This document shows positions 3,775-19,830 of a DNA stretch of 36,275 nt, piece after piece. The notes beneath the pieces were generated by a model. It did not search any database and was not told where the DNA came from. It was given only the letters and a program-made list of their open reading frames with translations. Both the position numbers and the translations under genes were made by a program. This stretch comes from Balneolaceae bacterium (GTDB lineage: Bacteria > Bacteroidota > Rhodothermia > Balneolales > Balneolaceae), in NCBI GenBank assembly GCA_009711805.1, contig VEMX01000073.1, positions 1 through 36,275 on the forward strand, written 5' to 3'. Numbering within the stretch: position 1 is the first letter of the stretch; each line of letters opens with the position of its first letter.

Positions 3775-4875
3775 ATGGCTAAGAAGAACACAGACGAAGT
3801 TAGGTTTGCCCCCACAGGTATAGGGGATGAGAAAGACGGTGCCGTCCAAAAAGGTGTTGATCTTCCCTCTGCAACAAGAAAAAAACATAAAAGCCTGGGG
3901 TTATCAGAAGACGATCTCAAATCAATGTTTAAGCAAATGTATTTGCAGCGACGATTTGAGGAACGGGCAATGCAGCAGTACCAAAAAGGAAAATTTGGCG
4001 GATTTCTTCATCTTTACATTGGGCAGGAAGCGGTTTCTACAGGAACCGTTTTTGCGCTAAATGATGATGACGATATCATTACCGCTTACCGTGATCATGG
4101 ATGGGGAATTTGCCGCGGGGTCACTCCCAAAGAAGGAATGGCCGAGCTTTTTGGTAAAGTGACCGGTTGCTCTAAAGGGAAAGGTGGATCTATGCACTTT
4201 GCCAAAACCGAAAATCATTTTTGGGGTGGCTATGGAATTGTAGGTGGTCATATTCCTATAGGCGGTGGTTTAGGCTTTGCCAACAAATATGAACAGAATG
4301 GCAGGATAGCAGCCTGTTTCTTTGGGGATGGAGCCGTAGATCAGGGATCGCTGCATGAGACCTTTAACATCAGTAAGCTGTGGGGACTGCCGGTAATTTA
4401 CGTAGTTGAGAATAATGGCTACTCCATGGGAACGGCCGCCAAAAGACATACCGTGGAAGATATTGTAGATCGGGCCAAAGGCTACGGGATGAAAAGTGCG
4501 GTTGTAAATGGGATGGATGTGTTCTCGGTATATGAGACCATGAAAGAAGTGGCCGAAGACGTACGCGAAAACTCAGAGCCTTGGTTGCTTGAGATCCGAA
4601 CCTATCGGTATCGCGGTCATTCTATGTCTGACCCTCAGAAATATCGCACCAAAGAGGAATTGGAAACATACCAAAAAAATGATCCTATTGAACGGATTAA
4701 ACGCTATTTGTTGGGGAATGATATCCTGAATGAAGAAGAAATTGAGGAAATAGAAAATAAGGTTGAACAAGTAGTGCTGGATGCAGTTGAGTTTGCTGAT
4801 GCATCTGACTTTCCGGATGAAGCCGAGCTCTACGATGATATGTTCGTAGAAGATGATCCATATTTCCATAACTAA
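3775..4875 (+). CDS. pdhA: Pyruvate dehydrogenase E1 component, alpha subunit
   Basis: A 366-residue E1 alpha subunit of the thiamine-diphosphate-dependent 2-oxoacid dehydrogenase family. With E1 beta it decarboxylates pyruvate and passes the acetyl group to the E2 lipoyl arm. The TPP/Mg motif is complete: GDG at 184-186, then NN at 213-214. The phosphorylation-loop region YRYRGHSMSDPQKYR is also present. A charged N-terminal extension of about 40 residues precedes the catalytic domain, which starts near EDDLKSMFKQMYLQRRFEE. It is first in a tight operon: the E1 beta start is 18 nt downstream. A branched-chain or acetoin enzyme would look similar, but the neighbouring E2 and the close fit to PDH alpha sequences favour pyruvate. 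Confidence 0.92.
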   Translation: MAKKNTDEVRFAPTGIGDEKDGAVQKGVDLPSATRKKHKSLGLSEDDLKSMFKQMYLQRRFEERAMQQYQKGKFGGFLHLYIGQEAVSTGTVFALNDDDDIITAYRDHGWGICRGVTPKEGMAELFGKVTGCSKGKGGSMHFAKTENHFWGGYGIVGGHIPIGGGLGFANKYEQNGRIAACFFGDGAVDQGSLHETFNISKLWGLPVIYVVENNGYSMGTAAKRHTVEDIVDRAKGYGMKSAVVNGMDVFSVYETMKEVAEDVRENSEPWLLEIRTYRYRGHSMSDPQKYRTKEELETYQKNDPIERIKRYLLGNDILNEEEIEEIENKVEQVVLDAVEFADASDFPDEAELYDDMFVEDDPYFHN

Positions 4876-4893
4876 TTAAACTGAGTAGATAAG

Positions 4894-5877
4894 ATGGCAG
4901 AATTACAATTCAGAGAAGCTATACGTGAAGCAATCGATGAAGAAATGGGACGCGATGAGAAGGTTTTTCTCATGGGCGAAGAGGTTGCTGAATACAATGG
5001 CGCATATAAAGTAAGTGAAGGACTGTTAGACAAATATGGATTTAAACGGGTAATTGATACCCCCATATCTGAGCTTGGATTTGCCGGTATAGGGGTAGGG
5101 GCCGCAATGAACGGTCTCCGACCTATAGTTGAGTTCATGACTTTCAACTTTGCCGTATTGGCTGCAGATCAGATTATAAATCACGCTTCTAAAGCACGAT
5201 ATATGACCGGCGGGCAGATTACCATACCCATGGTCTTCAGAGGTCCTAATGCCTCGGCAGGGCAGCTTGGTGCCACCCACTCGGTAGCTTTCGATTCCAT
5301 GTATGCTCATTTCCCAGGACTTAAAGTGATTTATACTTCCGAACCTGATGATGCAAAAGGATTATTGAAATCAGCTATCCGTGATGACAATCCGGTGCTG
5401 TTTATGGAGTCGGAGCAGATGTATGGTTTGAAAGGGGAAGTATCTGAGGAAGATGATTATATTATTCCCATTGGAAAAGGAAAAATTAAACGTGAAGGTT
5501 CGGACGTAACTATTGTTGCTCACGGAAAAATGTACCATGTAGCCAAACAGGCGGCCGCTCAACTCGAAAAAGATGGAGTGGAAACCGAGATTATTGACCC
5601 AAGAACGGTTAAGCCCCTGGATCTGCCAATGATTATAGACTCCATCAAAAAGACAAACCGGTGTGTGGTTGTAGATGAAGCACATCCGTTTGCAGGGTTC
5701 TCAGCTGAAATTGGATTTTTAATTCAACGGGAAGCTTTTGATTATTTGGATGCTCCTGTTCAGCGTGTTACTCTTCCGGATGTAAACGCACCATTTGCCA
5801 AAAACCTGTTTGATGCGTGGCTGCCAAGCCCAAAGCAGGTGATAGATGCGGTTAATCAAGTAACTTACAGAAACTAA
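4894..5877 (+). CDS. pdhB: Pyruvate dehydrogenase E1 component, beta subunit
   Basis: A 327-residue E1 beta subunit with the transketolase pyrimidine-binding domain first and the transketolase C-terminal domain second. Recognisable family blocks are the N-terminal FREAIREAIDEEMGRD, VFLMGEEVAEYNGAYKVSEG, then DTPISELGFAGIGVGAAMNG, FRGPNASAGQLGATHS, and IDPRTVKPLD in the C-terminal domain. It forms the alpha2beta2 heterotetramer with the upstream subunit. The E2 gene starts 25 nt after its stop, so the three genes are almost certainly cotranscribed. The length matches the family and nothing is missing. Confidence 0.93.
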   Translation: MAELQFREAIREAIDEEMGRDEKVFLMGEEVAEYNGAYKVSEGLLDKYGFKRVIDTPISELGFAGIGVGAAMNGLRPIVEFMTFNFAVLAADQIINHASKARYMTGGQITIPMVFRGPNASAGQLGATHSVAFDSMYAHFPGLKVIYTSEPDDAKGLLKSAIRDDNPVLFMESEQMYGLKGEVSEEDDYIIPIGKGKIKREGSDVTIVAHGKMYHVAKQAAAQLEKDGVETEIIDPRTVKPLDLPMIIDSIKKTNRCVVVDEAHPFAGFSAEIGFLIQREAFDYLDAPVQRVTLPDVNAPFAKNLFDAWLPSPKQVIDAVNQVTYRN

Positions 5878-5902
5878 AAACTCACTCAAGCAATAAGGAA
5901 TT

Positions 5903-7147
5903 ATGGCGATTAAGATTGAAATGCCGAAGCTTAGCGATACCATGGAAGAAGGGGTAATCGCAGCCTGGAATGTTAATGAAGGTGACGATGTGGAACCCGG
6001 CGATATTATAGCTGAGGTGGAAACCGACAAAGCGACTATGGAAGTAGAAGTTTTTGATGCCGGAAAAGTACTTAAAATTCTTGTTGATGAAGGAGATGCA
6101 GTTCCGCTTGGTGGACTGATGGCAGTACTCGGTGAAGAAGGAGAAGACATTAGTGATATCCTTGAGGGGGCAGATTCAAATGGTGCCTCCGCTTCAGGTA
6201 GTTCTGAGGATCAAAAGGAGGAAGATAAAGATGAGGCTAAGGAAGAAGCTGTAGCATCTGATACACAGCCTGCCTCTTCAGCTTCAGATAATGGAAGAAT
6301 AAAAGCATCTCCATTAGCTCGGAACATGGCTCAGGATAAAGGTATTGATCTCTCAAATGTAGAAGGATCGGGACCTGAGGGACGAATCATAAGAAGAGAT
6401 ATAGAAGATTATAAAGCACCCGTCCGGGCAGAATCTGCTCCGTCTGCAGTTCAAAGCTTCCAGCAGCTTGAAAGCCGGGAAGTTAAAGTGTCTCAAATGC
6501 GGAAAACTATTGCCCGAAGACTTTCGGAAAGCAAATTCTCTAATCCCCATTTCTATGAGACTATAGACATCGACATGAAACAAGCGGTGGCGGCTCGTGC
6601 CAAAATGAATGAGGCTAATGAGGTCAAAATCAGTTTCAATGATATTGTAGTGAAGGCGTGTGCCATAGCCTTGACTCGACATCAGCCCGTAAACAGTTCC
6701 TGGCATGATGATGTTATCAAAGAACACGGCGATGTACATGTAGCCGTAGCCGTAGCTGTTGAAGAAGGACTGATGACACCGGTTATTAATCATGCAGACC
6801 AAAAGGGACTGGCTCAGATTTCAGCAGAAACCAGAGAGCTTGCAGGACTGGCCCGGGAACGAAAGCTGCAACCCGAACAGATGGAGGGCAGCACTTTCAC
6901 CATAAGTAACCTGGGGATGTATGGCATTGAAGAATTCACCGCCATCATTAATCCTCCCAATGCATGTATTCTTGCAGTAGGTGCAATACGGGATGTGCCG
7001 GTTGTGGAAAACGGAGAAGTGGTGCCGGGTAAGCGAATGAAAGTGACCTTGTCCAGTGATCACCGTATTGTAGATGGCTCTAAAGCAGCTGAGTTTCTCA
7101 ATACCGTACGAAACCTCCTGGAAAACCCATTGGCAATGTTGCTATAA
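5903..7147 (+). CDS. pdhC: Pyruvate dehydrogenase E2, dihydrolipoamide acetyltransferase
   Basis: A 414-residue E2 that carries acetyl groups on lipoate to CoA. The order is one lipoyl domain (about 1-78; lipoylated lysine K43 in ETDKATME), an acidic Ser/Ala/Glu linker (about 85-130), a peripheral-subunit-binding domain (about 133-170; SPLARNMAQDKGIDLSNVEG), then the catalytic CAT domain with DHRIVDG near the C terminus (H387 and D391). A single lipoyl domain is usual for this type. AAGGAAT just before the ATG could serve as a ribosome binding site. It is the last gene of the pdh operon. No E3 (lpd) gene lies in the window, so dihydrolipoamide dehydrogenase must come from elsewhere. Confidence 0.93.
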   Translation: MAIKIEMPKLSDTMEEGVIAAWNVNEGDDVEPGDIIAEVETDKATMEVEVFDAGKVLKILVDEGDAVPLGGLMAVLGEEGEDISDILEGADSNGASASGSSEDQKEEDKDEAKEEAVASDTQPASSASDNGRIKASPLARNMAQDKGIDLSNVEGSGPEGRIIRRDIEDYKAPVRAESAPSAVQSFQQLESREVKVSQMRKTIARRLSESKFSNPHFYETIDIDMKQAVAARAKMNEANEVKISFNDIVVKACAIALTRHQPVNSSWHDDVIKEHGDVHVAVAVAVEEGLMTPVINHADQKGLAQISAETRELAGLARERKLQPEQMEGSTFTISNLGMYGIEEFTAIINPPNACILAVGAIRDVPVVENGEVVPGKRMKVTLSSDHRIVDGSKAAEFLNTVRNLLENPLAMLL

Positions 7148-7160
7148 AGCAGGGGCAAAA

Positions 7161-7242
7161 CAGACCGTGGCAGGGTGAGGAAAAAATAATAAGAGCCTTC
7201 CTCTGCGAGGGAGGGTGAGCTTAGCGAGCCAGACCGTGGCAG
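7161..7242. repeat. 13-bp direct repeat in the pdhC/btaB convergent gap
   Basis: CAGACCGTGGCAG occurs at 7161-7173 and again at 7230-7242. The interval holds GC-richer sequence (CTCTGCGAGGGAGGG) that looks like a repeat fragment rather than coding DNA. The gap lies between the convergent ends of pdhC and btaB and holds no supported gene. Confidence 0.5.
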
Positions 7243-7350
7243 TCTCCCTGTCTGTGGCAACTGATGGTGTCAGCGCTGATGTAGATCCTAAACAGATTTT
7301 GGGAGATCGCCGCGTTGGTATTGAACCAGGTCTTATTTAAACTTGAGCTC

Positions 7351-7420
7351 CTTGCGAGAGAGATTGCTTCATCGTTCTGCACTCCAAACCTACATTAAAC
7401 TTTATAGCATTCGCAATGAT
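7351..7420. repeat. Degenerate dispersed palindromic repeat (inferred)
   Basis: The left arm reads CTTGCGAGAGAGATTGCTTC and the far end reads CATTCGCAATGAT. Together they resemble a decayed copy of the widespread bacterial intergenic palindrome with arms of the type ATTGCGAG..GAAGCAATCT. The identification is from memory of that motif and the copy is imperfect. Confidence 0.4.
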
Positions 7421-7444: not shown

Positions 7445-8038
7445 TCATGATCTGCCCACAAACAAAGCATACGTCCAAAGTCCAAGGTAGGCTTGGTATG
7501 TATGGTAGCTGTAGTTGGGAAAAGACGTTTTTAGTTTGGTGAAAAGACCTGCATCAAAGTCTACAAAATTAGTTTTCATCCATTGTTTGAATAGGAGAGA
7601 CGGGCTTTGGTCGAAATCTACGGCCATGAACATGCCTTCGGCACACAGGTGCTTTTTTATGGCTTCAATAACATTATTCAAGTCGTTCATCATGGTGAGC
7701 GAATAGGAACAGATGATAAGATCAAAACTGTTTTCAGGAAACGAATCCCCGGTATATCGATCTTTGATGAAAACAGTTTGTTCGGAATGAATTTTACCCT
7801 TGGCAATCTTAAGCATGGCCTCGGAGGAGTCTATGCCGGTTAACTGGGCTTGAGGGAATCGTTGCTCAAGTTGAGCTAAGTGATAACCCGTACCGCAACC
7901 TATTTCCAAAATGCGTTGAGGAGTCGCCGAATCCGGTATGTGATTATGGAGTTTGGTTCTTCCAAAAAGAAACGCCCACCGCGTTGCATTATAGAAGGGG
8001 GAGTGAATACGGTAATATTGCTCTTTTGAGGTATACAT
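7445..8038 (-). CDS. btaB: Betaine-lipid N-methyltransferase BtaB (predicted)
   Basis: A 197-residue class I SAM-dependent methyltransferase with motif I at residues 43-53 (ILEIGCGTGYH). The N-terminal YNATRWAFLFGRTKL stretch resembles BtaB proteins. BtaB adds three methyl groups to diacylglyceryl-homoserine to give the betaine lipid DGTS. The specific call rests mainly on context: its ATG overlaps the btaA stop by one base (TAATG), which implies translational coupling in a two-gene leftward operon. On sequence alone it would be called only a generic methyltransferase. The length fits bacterial BtaB, and there is no membrane segment, so it likely acts peripherally at the inner membrane. Confidence 0.75.
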   Translation of the reverse strand: MYTSKEQYYRIHSPFYNATRWAFLFGRTKLHNHIPDSATPQRILEIGCGTGYHLAQLEQRFPQAQLTGIDSSEAMLKIAKGKIHSEQTVFIKDRYTGDSFPENSFDLIICSYSLTMMNDLNNVIEAIKKHLCAEGMFMAVDFDQSPSLLFKQWMKTNFVDFDAGLFTKLKTSFPNYSYHTYQAYLGLWTYALFVGRS

Positions 8039-9171
8039 TACTGAACGACTCCCAGCCAGGTGGCTGTATAGGTACCCACCCGATCTTGTTGCTGGATGTT
8101 GATATTCTTTGCATTGGTGAAATTCACTTCACCAAAAACAAAAGGAGGAAGAAAGCTTAGGTCTGGGTAAGCAGACCGGAATAAAATTGTAGCACCCGGC
8201 AAGGCATGAGTTAGGATCAGTTTCCACTGTTTAGCCAGTAATGCAGGCTCGGTTTCTGCCATCCAATCCATATGATCCAGGAGGATGAAATGACTGTATT
8301 TCGTTTCGGTATGGGAAAGGTGCTGCAATAGATTCGAAGATTTCAGGCTAAGCCTCCCAATGTTTTTCCGTAATACTGCAAAATTCTCTTTTTGTAAATA
8401 TTGAGGGCAGCAGTCAGTAGAGTACTTCCCCTCCAGGTATACTCTCCAATAATGGTTTTGAGCAGGGTTCTGTTCCACAAACAGTTGATAGATGGTGCCT
8501 TGCATAAATGCATTCAGATCTTCCACGGCTTCTGCTTGCGAAGCAGGGATGCCTGCCAGACTCAGTAGCCCATCCCATTTCCAAAGATATTGTGACAGCC
8601 CGGACCATAACTTCCCTTGAGTGGACCTGAAAATCTGCTCTCGTTCCGATCTGGATGCCGTATGAAGTAACCGGGATACATTGGGTTTTAATCCTTTAAG
8701 TTTTAGAATGGCATTCAGGATTAATGCAAAAGTACCAGCCGTCCCATTGTAATATAATCCCCGGCCGCCGGGTGAAAAGTAACGGATGTACCGGTCCCAA
8801 AAGAATCTGCTTTTTGCTTCCAGGTATGGACGCACCCTGGAATAAATGGCCAGGTATTCCGGATGCCGGCCTGTTAAAAAAAGGTTGCTTAATGCCGTAT
8901 AATCCCGGTACCTGATTAGCTTTATTTTGAGGTCAACAAGGGCATTCTGTCGGTAATTGACATCTATCCCATCTATGCGGCGGGGACCATCAAGCAGATA
9001 GGCGAGGGCGTTACAGCCGGCGCTTGTAATCATAAGCACAGAACTGTTATTATTAAGGTGTAGCAACTCACGATCAATAGCTGCATCTTCCCATGAAGTG
9101 TTGTAGACCAGATAATTTGAATGAATATAGCTGAACCATTTTTGATAAAGCCAATTGGACATCGAGTTCAT
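8038..9171 (-). CDS. btaA: BtaA-type SAM:diacylglycerol 3-amino-3-carboxypropyltransferase (DUF3419)
   Basis: A 377-residue DUF3419 protein. BtaA transfers the 3-amino-3-carboxypropyl group of SAM to diacylglycerol, making diacylglyceryl-homoserine, the first step to the phosphorus-free lipid DGTS. The family's signature stretch is intact: SWEDAAIDRELL (26-37), then MITSAGCNALAYLLDGP (47-63) and GIDVNYRQNAL (68-78), which form the SAM-binding fold. The C-terminal DHMDWM block is also present. The start is ATG at 9171, with a second ATG three codons in that could also be used. It precedes btaB in the same transcript and diverges from a DUF883 gene. No textbook Pho box is visible in the 92-nt upstream gap. 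Confidence 0.85.
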   Translation of the reverse strand: MNSMSNWLYQKWFSYIHSNYLVYNTSWEDAAIDRELLHLNNNSSVLMITSAGCNALAYLLDGPRRIDGIDVNYRQNALVDLKIKLIRYRDYTALSNLFLTGRHPEYLAIYSRVRPYLEAKSRFFWDRYIRYFSPGGRGLYYNGTAGTFALILNAILKLKGLKPNVSRLLHTASRSEREQIFRSTQGKLWSGLSQYLWKWDGLLSLAGIPASQAEAVEDLNAFMQGTIYQLFVEQNPAQNHYWRVYLEGKYSTDCCPQYLQKENFAVLRKNIGRLSLKSSNLLQHLSHTETKYSHFILLDHMDWMAETEPALLAKQWKLILTHALPGATILFRSAYPDLSFLPPFVFGEVNFTNAKNINIQQQDRVGTYTATWLGVVQ

Positions 9172-9213
9172 TTAATTGGGCACAAATAATGTTTAAATCA
9201 GTGTAAATCATAC

Positions 9214-9228
9214 GAATAATTATCATTC
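9214..9228. promoter_or_regulatory. AT-rich imperfect palindrome, possible operator between btaA and the DUF883 gene
   Basis: GAATAATTATCATTC matches its own reverse complement at 12 of 15 positions and contains half-sites resembling Fur boxes (TGATAAT on the minus strand). It sits in the 92-nt gap between two divergent starts. In AT-rich DNA such a match can arise by chance. Confidence 0.2.
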
Positions 9229-9263
9229 TAATTTTATATTTTTCAACTAAAACGAGGAGTGTT

Positions 9264-9536
9264 ATGGCTACCAAGAATAAAGAATCTAAATTGCGCAGAG
9301 ATATTGAGGATAAACTTTACGATGCCGCAGATAATATTCAGGTACGGGCAGAAAATACATTAGATGTATTGATCGATCGTCTGAAATATGAAAGAGATAA
9401 TCTTGAAAGAGACCTGAAACACGAATATCGTAATGCTCGCCGATATGTACGAGCTAACCCCGAACAAGGAATAGGCATCGCATTTGTAGCTGGATTAGCC
9501 ATAGGGGTGCTAATAGCCGGTGGGCGTAAAAAATAA
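9264..9536 (+). CDS. DUF883 (YqjD/ElaB-like) small membrane-anchored protein
   Basis: A 90-residue protein with a long charged helical region (about 5-60) and a single C-terminal hydrophobic segment (about 69-86) ending in RKK. The RRYVRANPEQGIGIAF junction is typical of DUF883. Characterised members in E. coli (YqjD, ElaB) are inner-membrane proteins that bind ribosomes in stationary phase; whether this one does so is inference from the family. GAGGAG lies 7 nt before the ATG. The gene sits between divergent btaA and prfB, which starts 26 nt downstream, so it could share a transcript with prfB. An unrelated YtxH-like tail-anchored protein is the main alternative. Confidence 0.7.
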   Translation: MATKNKESKLRRDIEDKLYDAADNIQVRAENTLDVLIDRLKYERDNLERDLKHEYRNARRYVRANPEQGIGIAFVAGLAIGVLIAGGRKK

Positions 9537-9562: not shown

Positions 9563-10679
9563 ATGGCAGTAAATACAGATTACCTGAGTGAACTCTACGA
9601 GCGTGTAAATGCGCTCAGGGGGTACCTTTGACTACGACAAACGAAAAGTCCGAATAATAGAACTTACTGAACAGACGCAGGATCCCAATTTTTGGAATGA
9701 CCCTGCCGAAGCACAACGCATCATGAAAAAGATCGACCATGAAAAGGGATTGGTCGAAGGGTGGGATACCCTCAATGATTTAAGAGATAGCATAAATGTA
9801 TATCTTGAATTCCAGGAGATGGGAGAAGACGTTGACAATGAGCTCGAATCTGAAGTAAAAAAACTGGAGAAAAATCTGGAGGATCTTGAGCTCCGCAATA
9901 TGCTTAGTGGCGAAGACGACCATCGGGATGCAGTAGTTAATTTCAATCCTGGTGCAGGGGGTACCGAAAGCCAGGATTGGGCACAAATGCTGTATCGCAT
10001 GTACCTGAAATGGGCAGAAAGTGCCGGCTTCAAAGTCTTCAATATTGACTACCAGGATGGAGATGTGGCTGGAATTAAAAGTGCCACTATAGAAGTGCAG
10101 GGTGAGAATGCCTACGGTTTCTTAAAAGCTGAAAACGGAGTACACCGCCTGGTCCGGGTATCTCCCTTCGACAGTAACGCCCGGCGACATACCTCCTTTT
10201 GTTCTGTTTTTGTAGCTCCACTTGTGGATGACACTATAGAAGTAGATATAAACGAAAAGGATGTTGAGCTTCAGCGGTTTCATTCAAGTGGTGCCGGCGG
10301 GCAGAATGTAAACAAGGTTGAGACCGGTGTAAGGCTCATCTGGGAAGGGGAACTCTCGGATGGAACCACAGAAAAAGTGGTAGCTGAATGTCAGCAGGAA
10401 CGCTCACAGCTTCAGAATCGTGAAAAGGCCATGGTATTGCTGAAGTCTAAAATATACGAGCTTGAAAAGGAAATCCGGGAAGCTGAAAAAGCTAAGCTTG
10501 AAGGCTCAAAAAGCAAAAACGAATGGGGTTCTCAAATCCGAAGTTATGTGTTTGATGATCAGCGGGTTAAAGATCACAGAACCAATTATGAGACATCCAA
10601 TGTAAATGCTGTTATGGATGGAGACTTGGATGATTTCATAAAAGCATATTTGTTGCAGGGGCAGGATGCCAACGTATAG
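9563..10679 (+). CDS. prfB: Peptide chain release factor 2 (programmed +1 frameshift)
   Basis: RF2 recognises UGA and UAA and triggers peptide release. The full gene starts at ATG 9563; 22 codons later an in-frame TGA (9629-9631) must be bypassed by a +1 shift, giving a 371-residue protein. After the shift the frame runs without a break to TAG at 10677. The SPF stop-codon recognition motif is at residues 200-202 and the catalytic GGQ at 245-247, spaced as in E. coli RF2. SPF separates it from RF1. A reading beginning at 9609 would miss the conserved N terminus and is not the true start. The end overlaps nadB by 14 nt. Confidence 0.96.
9617..9632 (+). promoter_or_regulatory. RF2 programmed +1 frameshift site
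   Basis: The sequence AGG GGG TAC CTT TGA C is the classic RF2 autoregulatory slip site: a Shine-Dalgarno-like AGGGGG, a three-base spacer, the slippery CTT, and a TGA followed by C, a weak termination context. It differs from the common form only in TAC for TAT. Low RF2 slows termination at the TGA and favours the shift, so the protein controls its own level. Confidence 0.95.
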
Positions 10680-16920: not shown

Positions 16921-19830
16921 ATGTCGTCTAAAAGACCAAAACCTTTATTTAAAGTAGCTTCGGAATTTAATGTAGCTACACAATCTATTGTGGATACACT
17001 CCAGGAAAATGGGTTCGAAGCCGCAAACAAGCCTAACTTTAAGGTGACACCAGAAATGTATGGTGCCCTGGAAGCTATCTATGGGGAAGATAAAGCTAAA
17101 AGCGAGGATCATGTAAAAGCGCGCGAGGAGTATGAAAGTCGCCGCAATCAGATGATGAACCAGCGTAACGAAAGTGTTACCCTCGATAACGTTTTGGAGC
17201 CTTTAGATGAAGCCCCCGACCTTGAACCTGAAGATGAGGACGAATCAGATGCTATTGGTGGATTGGAACCGCTCGAGCTTGAACCTGAAGAGGAACAGCA
17301 AGAAGAGCTAGAAGATACCGCTGATGTTGAAGAAGAAGTAGCCGAAGATGACGACGAAACTACTGACGAAGAGCCTGCAGAAGAGGAAGAAGAAAAAGAG
17401 GAAGAACCCGCCGTAGAAGAAGCCGATGATGAGGATGAGGATACGGAAGAATCGGAAGAGCCTGCAGAAGAAATAGCTGCAGAAGAACCTGCTGAAGAGA
17501 AAGCCGACGAAGATACTGAAGAAGATGCAGATGAAGACTCTGAGGAGGAAGAAGAATCGGATGAGGAAGATGAAGAAGAGGATGACGACGAAGAGGAAAC
17601 TGAAGCCGATACTCCTTCTGAAGACCAGGATTCCGATGACAAGAAAAAGGAAAAAGAAACTGAAGATGAAGACGAAGAAGAGGATGAGGATGAGGATGAG
17701 GAAGTCATCCGGGGTAGTGCAAGCAAGCTGAAAGGAACCAAAGTACTGGGGAAAGCGGCCTTCACCAGTGATATTGCCTCCAAGAAAAAACGTCGTAAGA
17801 AAAGAAAGCGTCGCAAAGACCGGGATGATGATTCCAAGGATAAGAAGTCCAAGGACAAAAAGAAGAGTAAAAAGAAGACAAGAAAGAAGAAAAAGCGTCG
17901 TACCGATGTTGATGAAAACGATGTAGATAAGATGATGAGAGAGACGATGCGCCGTATGCAATCGTCTAAAACTGTTGGTAGTAAACGCCAGAAACGCCGC
18001 CGTAAGCGAAAAGAAGAACGCGAAGAGGAAATACAACAGCAGGCAGAAATGCAAGAACTCGAGTCTCAGGTTGTAGAGACAACCGAGTTTATCACTGCTA
18101 ATGAACTGGCTGATCTCCTGGATGTAGGTGTTAATGATATTATTTCGGTATGTATGAGTATTGGATTGATGATCACCATCAATCAGCGACTGGATGCCGG
18201 TACTATAGAGCTGGTAGCAGAAGAATATGATAAAGAAGTAGAGTTCATCGATGCAGAAGAGATGGACGAAGAACTTGAGATTGAAGAAGATAACGAAGAA
18301 GATCTTGAACCCCGCGCACCTATTATTACCGTAATGGGGCATGTTGATCACGGTAAAACTTCACTACTTGATTACATCCGTAAAGCAAAAGTAGCTGCCG
18401 GCGAGGCTGGTGGTATTACCCAGCACGTGGGTGCATACGAAGTGGTGTACAACGAAAGTAAAATCACCTTCCTTGATACACCGGGTCACGAGGCTTTTAC
18501 AGCCATGCGTTCTCGCGGTGCCCAGGCTACCGATATTGTAATTCTTGTAGTAGCAGCTGATGACTCAGTGATGCCTCAGACTATAGAGGCAATCAATCAC
18601 GCCAAAGCAGCAGGTGTACCTATTGTTGTTGCTATCAACAAGATGGATAAGCCGGGAATTAACCCCGACAAGATCAAGCAACAGCTTTCTGAACATGATG
18701 TGATTGTTGAGGAATGGGGAGGAAAAACCCAGTATGCTGAAGTATCCGCCCATACCGGCCTTGGTATTGACGACCTGCTTGAAAAGGTATTGATAGAAGC
18801 TGAATTACTTGAACTGAAAGCTAATCCAGCCCGCCGCGCCGATGGTGTGGTACTTGAAGCTCGCCTTGATAAAGGAAAAGGTATTGTTTCGAACATCCTG
18901 GTACAGGGTGGAACATTGAAAGTGGGAGATCCATTTGTAGCCGGTCCTTGTTTTGGACGAGTTCGCGCAATGGAAGATGACCACGGCAAAAGAGTGGATG
19001 CCGCAGGCCCCTCAACACCGGTACAGCTTACCGGTTTTGATGAGATGCCACAGGCCGGGGATAAACTAATTGTAGCTGAAGATGAAAAAATAGCGAAAGA
19101 AGTTGCTAACGAACGTCAGCAGATACGACGTGAGCAGGCGATACGAAGTACCAAGCACATGACACTGGATGATATCTCCCGCCGTCTGGCGTTAGGAGAG
19201 GTATCAGAACTCAATATTATTATTAAAGCCGATGTGGATGGTTCTATAGAGGCGCTTTCCGGATCACTGCAGAAATTGGGTACGGATGAAGTAGCAGTGA
19301 ATATAATTCATACGGGAGCTGGAGCTATTTCAGAATCCGATGTATTGCTTGCATCCGCCTCAGATGCGATTATTATCGGTTTCCAGGTACGTCCAACTGC
19401 ACAGGCCCGGGGACTTGCCGAAGCAGAAGAAATTGACGTCCGCCTCTTCAGTGTTATTTATGATGCTGTAGATGAAGTCCGAGATGCACTTGAAGGGTTG
19501 CTCTCGCCAGCACTCAAAGAACAGCTTGTGGGTGTTGTGGAAGTCCGGGAAATCTTCAAAGTATCTAAGGTGGGAACCATTGCCGGTTGTTATGTAACGG
19601 AAGGCAAGATAGAGAGAAATAACCCCATCCGCGTAGTTCGTGATGGTGTAGTTATTTACGATGGAGAGATTGATGCCCTGAAGCGTTTTAAAGATGACGT
19701 GAAAGAAGTAAACACTGGTTACGAATGCGGTATCAGCATAAAGAATTACAATGATATTAAAGTTGGCGACCAGTTTGAAAGTTACAAGATAACAGAAGAG
19801 AAGCGTACGCTGGAAGATTCAGCAGGTTAA
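16921..19830 (+). CDS. infB: Translation initiation factor IF-2
   Basis: A 969-residue IF2, the GTPase that brings fMet-tRNA to the 30S subunit and promotes subunit joining. The order is an N-terminal IF2_N-like domain (about 1-60), an extremely acidic region (95-262), a Lys/Arg-rich block (about 288-327, and again 350-365), a second IF2_N-type domain (about 385-440, [20 protein letters not shown]), the G domain with GHVDHGKT from residue 473 and [12 protein letters not shown], then domains II, III and IV (fMet-tRNA binding, QFESYKI near the end). The catalytic core is complete. The acidic-to-basic polyampholyte linker is much longer and more charged than usual. The region is a single open frame without frameshift. 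Confidence 0.96.

Follow-up and report, generated by a model that had tools for sequence, protein, structure and literature searches.

A predicted btaAB betaine-lipid operon in the Balneolaceae, probably an old resident of its site, and a contrast in its promoter motifs within the family

The window analysed here, a stretch of 36,275 nucleotides comprising one whole contig of a 4.08 Mb genome, comes from a member of the Balneolaceae, a family of mostly salt-loving bacteria of saline habitats. On its minus strand we confirmed two open reading frames, btaA (nt. 9171–8038, 377 a.a), encoding a DUF3419 protein predicted to be an SAM:diacylglycerol 3-amino-3-carboxypropyltransferase, and btaB (nt. 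8038–7445, 197 a.a), encoding a predicted SAM-dependent diacylglyceryl-homoserine N-methyltransferase. Base 8038 is common to the stop codon (TAA) of btaA and the start codon (ATG) of btaB, giving a one-base overlap (TAATG). We propose that the two genes form a translationally coupled operon for the synthesis of DGTS, a phosphorus-free betaine membrane lipid. A 92 bp intergenic region (nt. 9172–9263), whose best dyad (ATTTACA-ctga-TTTAAAC) was not significant, separates btaA from a divergent plus-strand gene (nt. 9264–9536) for a small DUF883/ElaB-type protein (DUF883_C, PF19029, E 3e-8). This is followed by prfB (release factor 2; nt. 9609–10679, plus strand), a conserved flank identified by synteny and orthologues in relatives, and on the other side no gene lies between btaB and the convergent pdhC. 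A sequence-only reading of this DNA had described the overlapping BtaA/BtaB-like pair, the divergent DUF883 gene, and the Balneolales-type genome, all of which hold. We also noted a classical release-factor-2 programmed +1 frameshift (AGGGGG TAC CTT TGA C; nt. 9563–9632) near the start of prfB, and this gene therefore probably begins further upstream, at 9563, than the listed start at 9609.

The BtaA protein is a full-length DUF3419 member, matching PF11899 over residues 12–373 (profile positions 5–382 of 385) with an E-value of 6.6e-86 and a score of 289 bits, against a curated cut-off of 28.2 bits. The BtaB protein is a class I SAM methyltransferase (Methyltransf_25, PF13649, E 7e-19), and a profile built from Balneolaceae BtaB sequences recovered the BtaB encoded beside btaA in Sinorhizobium meliloti (E 7e-36). 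Given that btaA of S. meliloti Ak57 is split in its record, R. leguminosarum, which has the same neighbourhood, was taken as the rhizobial reference. (In the Ak57 record, L031 nt. 3908–5157, btaA occurs as two ORFs and btaB is intact.) Identity to rhizobial BtaA is low (~24–28%); nevertheless, the window and rhizobial proteins share conserved residues such as Y23, WED 27–29, D33, S50/G52 (SAG/SGG), D70, N72, K82, and LLD..DW 297–303. Both window proteins are shorter than those of R. leguminosarum (377 and 197 a.a versus 414 and 224 a.a). Adjacent, co-directional genes for a DUF3419 BtaA and a class I methyltransferase BtaB are likewise the arrangement in Rhodobacter sphaeroides and S. meliloti, where the function of the pair has been established (PMC3972451). 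As judged from sequence, the window pair is a genuine, complete, and ordinary btaAB.

An AlphaFold2 model of BtaA (50 sequences; pLDDT 92) displayed a class I SAM-methyltransferase (Rossmann) fold broken by a large helical insertion. While sequence searches found no homologue of BtaA of solved structure, the model superposed on SAM-bound class I methyltransferases in the PDB with Z-scores of 13–15 over 140–190 residues (Foldseek alone gave an E-value of about 1e-3). The modelled fold thus fits an SAM-using transferase, a fit that does not prove the acceptor or the activity.

DUF3419 proteins fall into two parts. In a quick tree of 87 of these proteins, a split with an SH-aLRT support of 99 separated a clade of 70, which holds both the rhizobial and the window BtaA and in which a BtaB-like gene is adjacent in 63 members, from a clade of 17 in which BtaB is adjacent in none. 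Some branches in the BtaB-less clade are long; the window protein is not among them. Members of the smaller clade often lie in clusters ordered UbiA, PEP/pyruvate-binding, DUF3419, unknown, and AMP-binding, and possibly carry out a different aminocarboxypropyl transfer. The existence of this second clade, with its own gene clusters, is what would favour a reading in which the window DUF3419 protein acts on another acceptor and the neighbouring methyltransferase is no functional BtaB. We consider this very improbable given that the window BtaA groups outside that clade and with the rhizobial proteins, its BtaB being homologous to rhizobial BtaB. The UbiA-type clusters were seen in Bacteroidota and on a Roseinatronobacter plasmid (L034, L048, L052, L053, and L054). 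Separately, three Balneolaceae genomes carry a very divergent DUF3419 paralogue without BtaB (stem branch 3.8; L070 nt. 4959–6077, L081 nt. 5004–6116, and L082 nt. 4959–6071), and one of the three, G017, also has a normal btaAB pair.

DGTS synthesis by the window pair is thus likely, as far as homology can tell. By the chemistry known from R. sphaeroides and S. meliloti (PMC3972451), BtaA would transfer the 3-amino-3-carboxypropyl group of S-adenosylmethionine to diacylglycerol, forming diacylglyceryl-homoserine, and BtaB would methylate the nitrogen of this intermediate three times to yield DGTS. The same two activities are found, by domain homology, in algal and fungal Bta1 (PMC10685587), which is one fused protein rather than the two separate proteins of the window. 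A related betaine lipid might be made instead if the short BtaB methylates incompletely or a different diradylglycerol is the acceptor, the product then being diacylglyceryl-homoserine, a mono- or dimethyl form, or an ether analogue. The C-terminal part of the 197-residue BtaB does align poorly with rhizobial BtaB, and polar-lipid reports on Balneolaceae list, besides named phospholipids, only 'unidentified' lipids and aminolipids (PMC5167729, PMC12260241). Against such a product, the BtaB core (GCGT, D70, SY, and the VDF region) is kept from rhizobia to Balneolaceae and both genes are kept together throughout the family genomes examined (see below), and we regard it as improbable in comparison with DGTS itself.

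The sequence-only reading had treated a btaAB pair outside the Alphaproteobacteria as remarkable, which it is not. A scan of genome contigs for BtaA relatives returned at least 568 confirmed related loci, and the best 80 of these span Balneolaceae, Saprospiraceae and other Bacteroidota, Verrucomicrobiota, Planctomycetota, Lentisphaerota, Acidobacteriota, Desulfobacteraceae, and gammaproteobacteria, most of the 80 with BtaB alongside. Betaine-lipid makers have already been reported from Bacteroidetes, Verrucomicrobia, Actinobacteria, and Gammaproteobacteria (PMC10667739), and Bta sequences of planctomycetes and archaea have been treated (PMC10685587). Within a sample of the phylum, DUF3419 was concentrated in the Balneolaceae, occurring in 28 of ~45 family genomes versus 17 of ~349 others. 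The pair itself recurs in related genomes: BtaB follows BtaA in all 35 Balneolaceae genomes with the locus that we examined and is directly adjacent in 34, and in G036 an opposite-strand ORF of ~350 a.a lies between the two genes.

The genomic site is also shared. In the window and 22 relatives, representing nine Balneolaceae genera, btaAB adjoins a (DUF883)-prfB-(nadB)-coaE-fbp block, and most genera without btaAB keep the DUF883-prfB-coaE-fbp block. The 22 BtaA proteins from Balneolaceae pairs that the DUF3419 tree includes all fall into one group (SH-aLRT 85, not starred). On a PrfB tree, which is a rough species tree because PrfB is one gene, about six changes are required to explain where btaAB occurs, and a genus without the pair (g4) branches near the window. 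Given the shared site, the single BtaA set, and the block retained in genera lacking the pair, the simplest reading of these sequences is that btaAB is an old resident operon of the Balneolaceae with several losses, placed at its present site early in the family and inherited vertically. The capacity to make betaine lipids would then be both ancient and fixed in much of the family. Recent acquisition of the pair by the window genome from another phylum, a form of the transfer that the sequence-only reading had raised, could draw on the patchy distribution within the family (any DUF3419 in 43 of 92 Balneolaceae genomes). It is scarcely credible beside the common grouping of the pair sequences and the site held in nine genera, and a test for a horizontally acquired island found no grouping with a donor outside the Balneolaceae in the BtaA tree. 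G048 is the sole examined genome with btaAB at another site (L071 nt. 4977–6811), and relocation and separate acquisition are both possible there; this genome belongs to a genus (g12) otherwise without btaAB.

No Pho box was visible before btaA to the sequence-only reading, and for the window this holds. The window genome has pstSCAB-phoU, with a repeat (GTTAACA-ttag-TTTAACA) in its own pstS promoter. Since a TTTACA consensus used alone gave no clear answer in many genomes, we took the pstS promoters from 11 relatives to train a dyad PWM (consensus CTTAAyA-N4-GTTAACA), leaving the test genome out when it was scored. The dyad background rate in flanking DNA was 0.17 per kb over both strands. 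In the window btaA promoter, the best dyad scored no better than shuffles (p = 0.72), and direct repeats of the Pho-box type (7 bp units with an 11 bp period) were not found. On the Fodinibius side of the family (genera g3, g7, and g17), the picture is different: the combined p-value at btaA promoters was 5e-6, versus 0.26 for the other genomes, and even here the PWM catches only part of the btaA sites. A TTYAYA-N5-TACAYA element precedes the btaA start in 14 of 14 Fodinibius-side genomes versus 0 of 21 others, the window included (nt. 9172–9263), a count that measures conservation and not an independent prediction of PhoB binding, as the element was defined from the same promoters. It lies about 40 bp before the start codon (range 26 to 43), and many of these promoters carry extra TTTACA/TTAACA units upstream, spaced 11 bp apart, to form a tandem array.

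Fodinibius-side genomes have pst-phoU, and their btaAB is probably induced by phosphate starvation via this PhoB-type array, comparable to the PhoB control described in rhizobia (PMC3972451, PMC8829014). For this half of the family the lack of a Pho box therefore does not hold, and the suggestion of a differently controlled betaine lipid is sharpened into a contrast of motifs within one family. The window pair is orthologous to that of Fodinibius and sits at the same genomic site (BtaA about 39–43% identical); however, it lacks the tandem array. With no Pho box found, it also differs from the sinorhizobial btaAB, which is PhoB-regulated (PMC3972451). The absence of the motif suggests that the window btaAB is probably expressed independently of phosphate, in a genome that has pstSCAB-phoU, although an unrecognised operator at the promoter is possible.

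Phosphate control of the window pair after all, via a degenerate or displaced Pho box or an unrelated regulator, with the lineages differing in motif sequence only, is an unlikely but serious alternative. The window genome's own pst operon with its TTAACA-type repeat speaks for it, as does a TTTACA heptamer about 30–37 bp before btaA. Set against these are the shuffle result at the window promoter and the behaviour of the 20 other genomes outside the Fodinibius side, of which only G048 beats shuffles (individual p 0.003) and most of those tested have neither PstS nor PhoU. Specifically, PstS (over cut-off) and stand-alone PhoU were absent from the sampled btaAB-bearing genomes of g2, g6, g8, g11, and g20, an absence that is uncertain for the incomplete genome G048. 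Two further markers were set aside: TIGR02154 (PhoB), for which many OmpR-type regulators appeared in 20 of 20 genomes with none over cut-off, and Porin_O_P, which was not clean. A Fur-like AT-rich palindrome in the window promoter (AATGATAATTATT / GAATGATAATTATTC; nt. 9172–9263, minus strand) was dropped because it was not seen in the btaA promoters of relatives.

The model as a whole, which we hold with good confidence, is that a coupled btaAB makes DGTS, is old and vertically inherited, and is probably phosphate-induced on the Fodinibius side and phosphate-independent in the window genome. The sequences directly show the identity and pairing of the genes, their clade, the predicted fold, the synteny, the motif contrast, and which genomes have Pcs; we infer the enzyme activities, the product, and the expression. 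A plcP-btaAB system for phosphate-stress remodelling in Phaeobacter sp. MED193 (PMC4796936) likewise holds btaA and btaB together; in contrast, no plcP or other remodelling gene lies beside the window pair, its flanks being DUF883-prfB and pdhC. While the btaAB pair itself is ordinary and of a known kind, the regulatory contrast and an accompanying contrast in phosphatidylcholine (PC) within the family are less so.

Searches with a phosphatidylcholine synthase (Pcs) model gave a bimodal result. Scores of 136–180 bits were obtained for all g3, g7, and g17 genomes tested (155–180 bits) and for three g12 genomes, versus at most ~31 bits (a PssA-type background) in the window genome and in g2, g4, g5, g6, g8, g11, and g20. 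The top five NCBIfam matches of five high-scoring proteins were all phosphatidylcholine synthases, though below equivalog cut-offs. A PmtA route to PC may also exist; the PmtA model NF045882 was not a clean marker, with matches in Fodinibius of ~86–102 bits versus a curated cut-off of 390. The Pcs result agrees with chemotaxonomy, in which PC is reported in Fodinibius/Aliifodinibius while Balneola and Gracilimonas have PG in its place (PMC5167729), and PC and DGTS are inversely related in other organisms (reviewed in PMC3972451). Hence, in lineages that make PC, DGTS may replace it under phosphate stress, and in those that do not, DGTS may be a standing choline-type lipid. On the Fodinibius side, which keeps Pcs, DGTS would replace PC on phosphate starvation; on the Balneola side, including the window genome (without Pcs and without a Pho-like array at btaA), DGTS would stand in for PC permanently, uncoupled from phosphate sensing. 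We offer this division tentatively, as a reading somewhat more likely to fail than to hold. The Pcs/Pho contrast represents few independent events, as it largely follows one deep split in the family. If true, PC/DGTS interchange would be found in both states within one family, in association with the acquisition or loss of Pcs, Pst-PhoU, and the Pho-like array. The joint pattern of Pcs, Pho, and btaAB across cultured genera with and without Pcs and the Pho-like array offers a clean comparative test of the existing idea that the two lipids can replace each other (PMC3972451).

Some features around the locus were noted in passing. In Balneola (L182 nt. 6231–7415), the gene after btaB, in the same orientation, encodes a proline dehydrogenase. 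The Fodinibius-side DUF883 gene (L065–L069 and others) has a conserved TATCTTTG element, of the Bacteroidota promoter type, just 5′ of its start. Elsewhere in the window, nt. 16921–19830 encode an IF-2-like protein whose very long N-terminal part is extremely acidic and then lysine-rich.
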